In this document: positions 37,122 to 39,654 of the stretch, in pieces | How positions within the stretch are numbered: position 1 is the stretch's first letter | How the letters are laid out: each line of letters opens with the position of its first letter | DNA from: Ensifer adhaerens | GTDB lineage: Bacteria > Pseudomonadota > Alphaproteobacteria > Rhizobiales > Rhizobiaceae | NCBI RefSeq assembly: GCF_002007205.1 | Contig: NZ_LAZS01000006.1 | Coordinates: 682,001-746,000, forward strand | Direction of reading: 5' to 3' | DNA: 64,000 bases | Notes under the pieces: model-generated | What the model was told of the DNA's origin: nothing | Database searches by the model: none | Seen by the model: only the letters and a program-made list of their open reading frames with translations | Made by a program: the position numbers and the translations under genes

Positions 37122-37553
37122 ATGAGCCGAATTACGCCTTTTACGAGCCCGCTGCTGTTGGGTTTCGATACGATGGAAAAGACCCTTGAGCGCATCGCCA
37201 AGGGCAACGACGGATACCCGCCCTACAATATCGAGCGCATCCGCGGCGACGAATCGTCCGATGCGCCGGAACGCCTGCGCATCACGCTGGCGGTGGCCGG
37301 CTTTTCCGACGAAGACCTCGAAGTCACCACCGAAGAAAACCAGCTCGTCATCCGCGGCCGGCAGATCGACAACGGCGACCGCGACTATCTGCACCGCGGC
37401 ATCGCCGCGCGCCAGTTCCAGCGCACCTTCGTTCTCGCCGACGGCATGAAGGTGCTCGGCGCTGAACTGCGCAACGGCCTGCTCTCGGTCGATCTCGTTC
37501 GTCCCGAACCGGTGCGTATGGTAAAGAAAATTAACATTTCAGTCCCAGAGTAG
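37122..37553 (+). CDS. Small heat-shock protein Hsp20/IbpA family (class A)
   Basis: A 143-residue alpha-crystallin-domain chaperone. It starts MSRITPFTSPLLLGFDTMEK, like the IbpA/HspA class of rhizobia, with an alpha-crystallin domain (about 30-125) holding YPPYNIERI, LVIRGRQ, YLHRGIAARQFQRTFVLADG and the A.L.NGLL.VDL motif. A short C-terminal tail follows. It holds unfolding proteins at high temperature. It is controlled by the ROSE element just upstream, and is followed 47 bp later by a DUF1150 gene. Confidence 0.95.
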   Translation: MSRITPFTSPLLLGFDTMEKTLERIAKGNDGYPPYNIERIRGDESSDAPERLRITLAVAGFSDEDLEVTTEENQLVIRGRQIDNGDRDYLHRGIAARQFQRTFVLADGMKVLGAELRNGLLSVDLVRPEPVRMVKKINISVPE

Positions 37554-37600
37554 GATAACCGGCGGGATTTTCCCCTCACCGGCGACCACGGAGTGTCACC

Positions 37601-37858
37601 ATGGGACTGAAAGACATCAGCTCGTCACTGTCGAAGAACGACCTCGCGCATCTCGGCGAAGGCGAAGTCGGCTACATCCGGAAAATGCGTTCGGAAGAGG
37701 TCTCGCGCTGCTTCCCGGAAGCACCGGAGATGGGACCGGGTATCGACCTCTGGGCACTCTTCGGCGCCGACGGCACGCCGATCCTCCTCACCGACAACCG
37801 TTCCAGCACCTTCTTCAAGGCGGCCGAGGACGATCTGAAGACAGTCACGCTGCACTGA
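37601..37858 (+). CDS. DUF1150 family protein
   Basis: An 85-residue protein matching DUF1150 by its pattern LGEGEVGYIRKMRSEEV and LWALFGADGTPILLTDNR. Function is unknown, but the family is commonly encoded right after small heat-shock genes in alphaproteobacteria, as here, suggesting shared transcription from the heat-shock promoter. It is the last gene before the tandem repeat array. Confidence 0.88.
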   Translation: MGLKDISSSLSKNDLAHLGEGEVGYIRKMRSEEVSRCFPEAPEMGPGIDLWALFGADGTPILLTDNRSSTFFKAAEDDLKTVTLH

Positions 37859-37936
37859 TCGGGCTACCGTCGACGACGGCGGCAACGTGATGCCTGAATG
37901 GAAGCCGTCGCCCCTGAGAGCGACGCAAGCTTGAGC

Positions 37937-38681
37937 GGAAAACCGCTTCACACTTTTCCTGGAATTGATCTTCTGGTCCGCAATTCCGGACGGAAAACCG
38001 CTTCGCACTTTTCCTGGAATTAAGCTTCTAGTCCGCAATTCCGGACGGAAAACCGCTTCGCACTTTTCCTGGAATTAAGCTTCTAGTCCGCAATTCCGGA
38101 CGGAAAACCGCTTCGCACTTTTCCTGGAATTAAGCTTCTAGTCCGCAATTCCGGACGGAAAACCGCTTCGCACTTTTCCTGGAATTAAGCTTCTAGTCCG
38201 CAATTCCGGACGGAAAACCGCTTCGCACTTTTCCTGGAATTAAGCTTCTAGTCCGCAATTCCGGACGGAAAACCGCTTCGCACTTTTCCTGGAATTAAGC
38301 TTCTAGTCCGCAATTCCGGACGGAAAACCGCTTCGCACTTTTCCTGGAATTAAGCTTCTAGTCCGCAATTCCGGACGGAAAACCGCTTCGCACTTTTCCT
38401 GGAATTAAGCTTCTAGTCCGCAATTCCGGACGGAAAACCGCTTCGCACTTTTCCTGGAATTAAGCTTCTAGTCCGCAATTCCGGACGGAAAACCGCTTCG
38501 CACTTTTCCTGGAATTAAGCTTCTAGTCCGCAATTCCGGACGGAAAACCGCTTCGCACTTTTCCTGGAATTAAGCTTCTAGTCCGCAATTCCGGACGGAA
38601 AACCGCTTCGCACTTTTCCTGGAATTAAGCTTCTAGTCCGCAATTCCGGACGGAAAACCGCTTCGCACTTTTCCTGGAATT
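37937..38681. repeat. Tandem array of a 55-bp palindromic repeat, 14 copies
   Basis: Units begin at 37937 and then every 55 bp to 38652. Each unit starts GGAAAACCGCTTCGCACTTT and continues TCCTGGAATT, AAGCTTCTAG, TCCGCAATTCCGGAC. The first copy has several base changes (CTTCA, ATTGATCTTCTGG). The next 12 appear identical and the last stops after 30 bp at ATT. AATTCC...GGAAAA pairs with TTTTCC...GGAATT, so every unit can fold, and GTCCG...CGGAC is a second palindrome. 55 is not a multiple of three and no frame stays open, so it is not coding. The array fills the 826-bp gap between the convergent DUF1150 and trmB genes, ending 3 bp before the trmB stop. Confidence 0.97.
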
Positions 38682-38684
38682 GCT

Positions 38685-39383
38685 TTAGACGCGCCGGAAG
38701 GTGAGATAGGCGGAGCTGCGCCCTTCCCTGCGTGCCTTGGCCTCGTAGCGCGTGCTCGGCCACCCCTCATAGGGCGTCAGCCAATCGGAAGCCTTCTCTG
38801 CCGTCCACTCGAAGGCTGCGTGATCGCGGCAGTGCAACAGAGTCCAGTTGACGTAGGTATCGATATCCGAGGCGAAGCAGAACAGGCCACCGGGCTTCAA
38901 CACGCGGGCGAAGCGGTCGAGATTGACCTTGGAGACGAAGCGGCGCTTCCAGTGTTTGCGCTTCGGCCACGGGTCCGGATAGAGCAGATCGATCTGGTCG
39001 ATCGACGCAGCCGGCAGCCAGTCGAGCACCTGGGTGGCGTCGTCGTCGTAGAGCCTGATGTTGCTGACGCCGCGCGCCTCGATGTGGCCGACGAGCTTGG
39101 CCATGGAATTGACGAAGGGTTCGACGCCGATAAAGCCCGTCGACGGCGCTTCGGCCGCGCGGTGGATCAGGTGCTCGCCGCCGCCGAAGCCGATTTCGAG
39201 GCGCATGCGGTCGACGACCTGAGGATAGAGCGTCTTCAGATCGGCCGGAGCCGCGCTCGAAAGGTCAAGCTTCAGCGTCGGCAGTACGGTTTCCAGATGC
39301 GTCGCCTGCCGCTCGCGCAGCGGCTTGCCCTTGCGGCGGCCGAAGAAGGCCTCGGTTGCTCTGGCACGGCGCGGTTCGGTCAT
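38685..39383 (-). CDS. trmB: tRNA (guanine-N7-)-methyltransferase
   Basis: Forms m7G46 in tRNA variable loops using SAM. The 232-residue protein has the SAM-site [13 protein letters not shown], the D-rich [20 protein letters not shown] and the signature [19 protein letters not shown], with C-terminal [13 protein letters not shown]. It is the last gene of the long minus-strand run. Its TAA stop lies within or right beside the tail of the last repeat copy. Confidence 0.95.
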
Positions 39384-39444
39384 GTCCTTGTCCCTTGGTC
39401 ACGCTGATCTCGGATCAAGGCAACCCAAAATCAAAATGAACGAA

Positions 39445-39471
39445 GCGGGCGCTCCTTGCCGGAGCGCCCGC
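39445..39471. terminator. Perfect 11-bp GC hairpin between metK and trmB
   Basis: GCGGGCGCTCC (39445-39455), loop TTGCC, GGAGCGCCCGC (39461-39471). On the minus strand it is followed by TTCGTTCATTTTGATTTT, so it is a plausible imperfect terminator for metK, leaving trmB to its own promoter or to read-through. Confidence 0.7.
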
Positions 39472-39530
39472 CCTGATTTTCGCAAACGCCTGATAGCAGG
39501 CCGCTGCGCTATCTTCAATGCGCGGCACTA

Positions 39531-39634
39531 CAGCGCCGCGCGTCTTGTGAGACGCGCAAAGGTCGCTGTAGCACTTTAAAGTGCTGCATGTTTTTGTCCT
39601 TTAGTCGGTTACGATCAAAGGAAACGTGCAGTAC
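39531..39634. repeat. Rhizobial palindromic intergenic element, copy B (RIME-like)
   Basis: A 104-bp element of the same family as 16277-16378, starting CAGCGCCGCGCG and ending GTGCAGTAC. It contains the hairpins GCGCGTCT-TGTG-AGACGCGC and GCACTTTAAAGTGC (a perfect palindrome), then CTGCATG and TTTTTGTCCTTTAG. The left flank GCGGCACTACAGCGCCGC adds another inverted repeat. It lies just downstream of metK and probably appears at the 3' end of its mRNA. Confidence 0.75.
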
Positions 39635-39654
39635 ACGCCACGCCGACGCCTTGA

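Follow-up and report, generated by a model that had tools for sequence, protein, structure and literature searches.

The stretch of Ensifer adhaerens DNA analysed here (64,000 nucleotides; hereafter the window) carries, between a gene for a DUF1150 protein and trmB, a head-to-tail array of a palindromic unit, and the question that it raises is how such an array arose and whether it does anything for the genes on either side. The host genome comprises 6.87 Mb in 22 contigs, and the TrmB sequence of the window is nearest to that of E. adhaerens ST2, followed by those of other Ensifer. Tandem Repeats Finder reported a period of 55, 13.6 copies, 99% matches and a score of 1464 at 37936-38681, while the remaining four rows in the 64-kb window scored 52 to 81. 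Unit-by-unit comparison resolved positions 37937-38681 into 13 full 55-bp units and a 30-bp final unit. The preliminary description, in which the first of fourteen copies was divergent, the next twelve identical and the last cut short, and in which the flanking genes converged on the array, is borne out in all of these points (Table 1).

Table 1. Features of the DUF1150-trmB region, in window coordinates.
Feature	Position	Strand	Basis or remark
DUF1150 gene, left neighbour, directed at the array	37601..37858	+	Open reading frame; orthologue adjoins trmB in relatives
Short inverted repeat CGTCGC...GCGACG in the gap between DUF1150 and the array	37906..37925	.	Sequence; also in ST2, G001 and G009
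Unit 1, divergent edge copy with 4 differences, without the preceding left half-arm GCAATTCCGGAC	37937..37991	+	
Units 2-13, twelve identical 55-bp copies	37992..38651	+	Repeat finder, unit comparison
Unit 14, last copy; its right arm retains the outer element end GGAATTGC	38652..38683	+	
Complete 44-bp hairpin (second arm), immediately after the trmB stop	38640..38683	-	Folding, covariation
trmB stop codon TAA (TTA on the + strand)	38685..38687	-	Open reading frame
trmB, right neighbour, its stop adjoined by the element	38685..39383	-	Open reading frame; TrmB relatives

Each unit consists of a 44-bp palindrome, GCAATTCC-GGAC-GGAAAA-CCGCTTCGCAC-TTTTCC-T-GGAATTGC, to which a short linker is attached. 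In the inner copies the final GC of the palindrome has been given up to the linker; the last copy retains it, so that the arm extends two bases beyond the repeat proper and is followed by one base and then by the trmB stop. A second palindrome, GTCCG/CGGAC, had been attributed to every unit, and it is indeed present here and in the arrays that ST2, G001 and G009 have at trmB; it depends on the linker of this locus, however, and is absent from other arrays of the same genome, such as L068, L069, L070 and L071. The short inverted repeat to the left of the array could be either a native hairpin or the leftover of a lost first arm.

The genome-wide search for the unit that the preliminary description had suggested found the palindrome dispersed over 27 places in its own genome. 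It was also matched in all 16 genomes of the genus and in 462 of 72,556 plasmid records, with Rhizobium contributing 271 of the matched records and Sinorhizobium 141. From TA to TA, full-length relatives span 104-106 bp (104 bp in G009); they consist of a first palindromic arm, a linker reading CTTTTGAAATTAC or CTTTTGTTTTTAC, and a second arm that is the palindrome of the array. The array is therefore one arm, in amplified form, of a RIME/CIR-type element with two arms. The terminal repeat of the parent element is short, CTAGAGC/GCTCTAG, and copies in R. jaguaris and R. ruizarguesonis (L282, L288) have the ends CTAGAGC...GCTCTAG. Full-length copies in E. sesbaniae (genome G008; L196, L197, L199, L200 and L203) are near-identical, which suggests a recent burst of the element in that species. 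A second conserved element site was seen in five genomes (L073, L176, L197, L211, L235), with 1-4 copies and a gene start 45-46 bp to the right, and may thus lie in a 5' leader.

The placement of the element relative to genes points to how it inserts. Gene context was read for 112 element clusters, 20 from the genome of the window (the window and 20 other stretches, set against the 27 places of the palindrome) and 92 from 80 fetched 20-kb stretches of four other genomes, after two clusters that lacked one flanking gene or fell within a called gene had been left out. The right-hand gene was convergent in 80 of the 112 clusters, and in 50 of these 80 (28 of 49 distinct sites) its stop codon fell at the element end, 8-11 bp from the core. 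Counted over all 67 distinct sites in five genomes, 28 have the element directly at a stop codon. These 28 stops comprise 17 TAA, 5 TAG and 6 TGA, against 275 TAA, 221 TAG and 786 TGA in the background (n=1282), so that TA-containing stops make up 22/28 at the element and 496/1282 among background genes (Fisher p = 4e-5; p values for sites are rough, because sites and species share descent). On the left side, 84 left-hand genes face the element, and 11 of them stop at a distance of 64-66 bp from the core, the distance expected for a full-length element being 65; the stops read for nine of these cases were six TAG, one TAA and two TGA. The left-hand stops of half elements, of which 10/18 contain TA, were unconvincing, and an attempt to tell full from half elements by folding the upstream stretch was rejected, since native terminators and neighbouring units also fold. 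Placement at a stop has exceptions: of six E. sesbaniae copies that are young and near-identical, none abuts a stop codon, and among annotated plasmid copies only 2/9 do so (14 single-element loci fetched, five without gene annotation left out, and a 50-kb stretch set aside).

Filled and empty alleles complement these counts. At the trmB stop itself, of two sister species, L096 is empty and L094 is filled by a related sister family with ATGTC arms, as a single element with a doubled TA; the stop has changed from TAA to TAG and TrmB still has 232 residues. A TA target duplication is thus seen for the sister family at the codon where the window has its array, and TA at 38686-38687 is presumably the insertion target there too, as this filled and empty pair at the same codon suggests. 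For the subfamily of the window, G009 has a full-length copy between the stops of two convergent genes, with C-TA-G at both ends. A search of eight other genomes for this site found G001, G014, G011 and G005 empty and, at the same TAG in G010, a single-arm insertion with TA at both ends; G000 and G003 differ on the right side, and G008 matches partially. Because the empty alleles read TGAG, the TA duplication at this site is readable only from the filled allele. The array at trmB shows no left TA, so that the insertion which founded it is deduced from the right end.

Nine related species carry an array at the trmB locus, and a trmB tree of 29 rows places them together, with a single change and a support of 99/99. 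Copy numbers, counted by eye from printed sequences with degenerate copies included, are 14 in the window, 7 in ST2, 6 in G001, 5 in LC11, 4 in G014, 3 each in E. sesbaniae, G009 and Root278, and 2 in G005; ST2/G003, LC11/G011, Root278/G010 and E. sesbaniae/G008 have identical intergenic sequences and were each counted once. Among 80 named relatives, the core was found in the trmB intergenic stretch of five, namely L088-L091 and, as the sister family, L094. The linkers of the ST2, G001 and window arrays are uniform inside each array and different between species, two linkers take turns in the LC11 array, as would follow from the doubling of a block of two copies, and the copy nearest DUF1150 is altered or truncated in seven of the nine species. 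Neighbouring copies are spaced 54-59 bp apart in 87 of 93 cases family-wide (13 from the trmB array), and the other arrays of the same genome have linkers of their own, which indicates that tandem duplication has been local and repeated. An array of this size had been called uncommon in rhizobial DNA; fourteen is indeed the largest number observed here, whereas tandem copies as such are common, nine of the 20 clusters read in the same genome having them.

We consider it probable (about 0.72) that the array arose when one arm of a small, non-autonomous mobile element was amplified locally, head to tail. This parent, of about 104 bp from TA to TA with two palindromic arms and a linker, would insert at TA; where this TA belongs to a stop codon, it would be kept and the first base of the element would complete TAG or TAA. 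Regeneration of the stop leaves the protein as it was and allows the insertion to persist, so that placement at stops is explained by a TA-targeting element that restores the stop, with no selection for position. One such insertion would have struck the trmB stop in the ancestor of an Ensifer species group, after which the first arm may have been lost, unless only half an element entered. The remaining linker-plus-arm unit, representing the right arm, would then have been duplicated in tandem in place, presumably because replication slipped at the hairpins or recombination was unequal, and the units would have been homogenised separately in each species, that of the window reaching 14 copies. 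Of the roles offered in the preliminary description, that of a recently amplified selfish element accords best with these data: the unit belongs, as an arm, to a family of dispersed elements with TA ends, its number ranges from 2 to 14 by species, and its linkers have been homogenised separately. An array that related species share in 2 to 7 copies looks like a fast-changing by-product of mobile DNA, which would probably have little or no function of its own, and less like a system of a new kind.

The enzyme that would move the element is presumably IS630-like. Four IS630 copies in G008 (L266-L268 and L271) sit in CTAG and have the ends TGTCCTGAT...ATCAGGACA; they thus have the same target motif as the repeat and different terminal repeats. 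A DDE_3 search in four genomes found no transposase with matching ends, the genome of the window yielding one weak DDE_3 fragment. The elements lie mostly on one chromosome strand: of the distinct sites, 47 share the strand of the element at trmB, 12 have the opposite one and 1 is mixed (p = 5e-6; G001:C1, G008:C1, G009:C2 and G014:C1, loci L168-L247), and a lagging-strand, IS200/RAYT-like model was therefore examined. It was rejected, as the bias is not flipped by GC skew (24:2 where positive, 24:10 where negative) and as Y1_Tnp (PF01797) had 0 matches in the genome of the window, which is 99.99% complete; the control was positive in 5 of 14 genomes. The elements of G005 look one-sided near its start and mixed elsewhere.

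The hairpin itself has been retained. The 44-bp arm folds at -18.8 kcal/mol on the trmB strand, with a GAA triloop, and at -16 on the other RNA strand. Across 261 distinct copies, 81% of the positions expected to pair do so by standard pairs, against 35-50% in slid versions, and the loop reads GNA on the trmB strand in 195 of the 261. These compensatory changes would fit an RNA hairpin as well as a DNA structure needed for movement. The count of G-U against A-C, which could tell the RNA strand, came to 242 to 211 and does not clearly favour one; other selections gave 93:62, 64:32 and 185:149; a count of 72:30 came from a selection-biased sequence set.

A selected function at the 3' end of mRNA is the alternative that survives best, and we regard it as unlikely. 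According to this explanation, a hairpin immediately behind the stop would shield the end of the transcript or hold up ribosomes at the stop, an effect that the array would multiply or insulate between the convergent genes. Such hairpins have a precedent in E. coli, where REPs less than 16 nt from a stop can reduce translation (PMC12306157), and by analogy an effect of the array on trmB is plausible and a role at the mRNA 3' end possible. The conservation of the pairing and the presence of the array in all nine species of the group speak for it, as does the finding that stop-abutting sites are more often tandem than others (16/28 vs 7/39, p = 0.0015), an excess that could come from selection or from plain tolerance. 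However, TA insertion by itself accounts for the position, the covariation is equally expected if the hairpin serves DNA movement, and a copy number of 2 to 14 speaks against a fixed dose. More doubtful still is an extension of this idea in which RIME-type arms, arriving at stops as ready-made 3'-end hairpins, are kept for tuning the preceding gene, the tandem copies forming a 3'-UTR minisatellite through whose number of units the neighbours, here trmB and DUF1150, are adjusted heritably and reversibly.

A stack of bidirectional intrinsic terminators, also put forward in the preliminary description, would suit the convergent neighbours and a hairpin that forms on both RNA strands, and 35 of 67 element sites do lie between convergent genes, against 206 of 1039 intergenic gaps of at least 40 bp in the same regions. 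Yet insertion at stop codons favours convergent gaps likewise, some left-hand genes already possess their own GC-rich hairpin with T's behind it, as for example at L173 and L080, and a terminator scan of 37500-39500 placed none of its five sites, and no U-tract terminator, within the array (37937-38681), so that this function is improbable. Rfam 15 gave no match inside the array at E <= 1. The trmB-metK gap holds a strong inverted repeat (39443-39473) that has a T-rich tail on each strand and is a good candidate for a bidirectional intrinsic terminator. The same gap contains a second dispersed rhizobial palindrome (39502-39641; ACAGCGCCGCGCGTCTT...AGACGCGCAAAGG..CGCTGTAGCACTTT), with a weak Rfam match to the Brucella sRNA CI27 (27.8 bits against a gathering score of 59.8) and a similar sequence in L099.

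That the array binds a nucleoid protein or acts as a decoy is suggested by its many identical palindromic sites adjoining one another and is very improbable, given the different linkers of the family's other arrays. Least probable of all is that the copy number is an assembly artefact: twelve identical units in a 22-contig assembly invite the thought, but short-read assemblies tend to collapse such arrays, and arrays with other linkers stand at the same locus in eight other genomes, including the 3-contig G001, G009 and G014.

With the amplified arm of a mobile element as the preferred reading, an odd array becomes a comparative series, with one locus, nine species and 2 to 14 copies, together with filled and empty stop alleles. 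This series makes the movement of rhizobial palindromic repeats testable, both in its TA target and in the regeneration of the stop codon, and makes it equally testable whether hairpin arrays behind a stop alter expression or are tolerated. Should copy number vary within a species, the trmB array would in addition be of use for typing in the E. adhaerens group.

Repeats of the RIME, CIR and MITE-like types are already known; the arm-only tandem array at a stop codon is new. Literature searches on RIME, palindromes, MITEs, stop codons and Ensifer tandem repeats gave no description of such an array among the titles and abstract openings listed, and six core sequence strings had no match in a text search of the literature. 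The Rhizobium-specific intergenic mosaic elements (RIME) were reportedly described by Osteras and colleagues in 1995. RIME1, which is about 108 bp long with two large palindromes, resembles the full-length parent in both respects (104-106 bp, two arms), and on this size and structure the element likely belongs to RIME; the array differs in using a single arm, in tandem.

Among repeats of other bacteria, the CcrM-associated CIR of Caulobacter and Brucella are described as about 110 bp long with two inverted-repeat arms, a linker and TA ends (PMC2229807), and to that extent the full-length relatives, which are likewise alphaproteobacterial, share their arms, linker and TA termini. The GANTC site of CcrM, however, is absent from the window array and present in 1 of 16 first arms of the subfamily (four rows that were neighbouring second arms excluded), and for this reason the element is not filed as CIR; the sister family (L094, L244, L275) has GATTC. 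The RUP, Correia/NEMIS and ERIC MITEs are likewise non-autonomous with TA ends and a TA target, whereas the element here has only a short terminal repeat, and no partner transposon was found for it. REP/BIME are also palindromes, some tandemly reiterated and some near stop codons (PMC3733652, PMC12306157); compared with them, the parent is longer and two-armed, and the element is not filed as REP/RAYT because no Y1 transposase was found in this genome. Finally, BrickBuilt of Porphyromonas gingivalis is a minisatellite that arose within a MITE, as the tandem repeat would have done here. Its 23-bp unit lies between a leader and a tail, whereas the unit of the trmB array is a whole hairpin arm at a stop codon.
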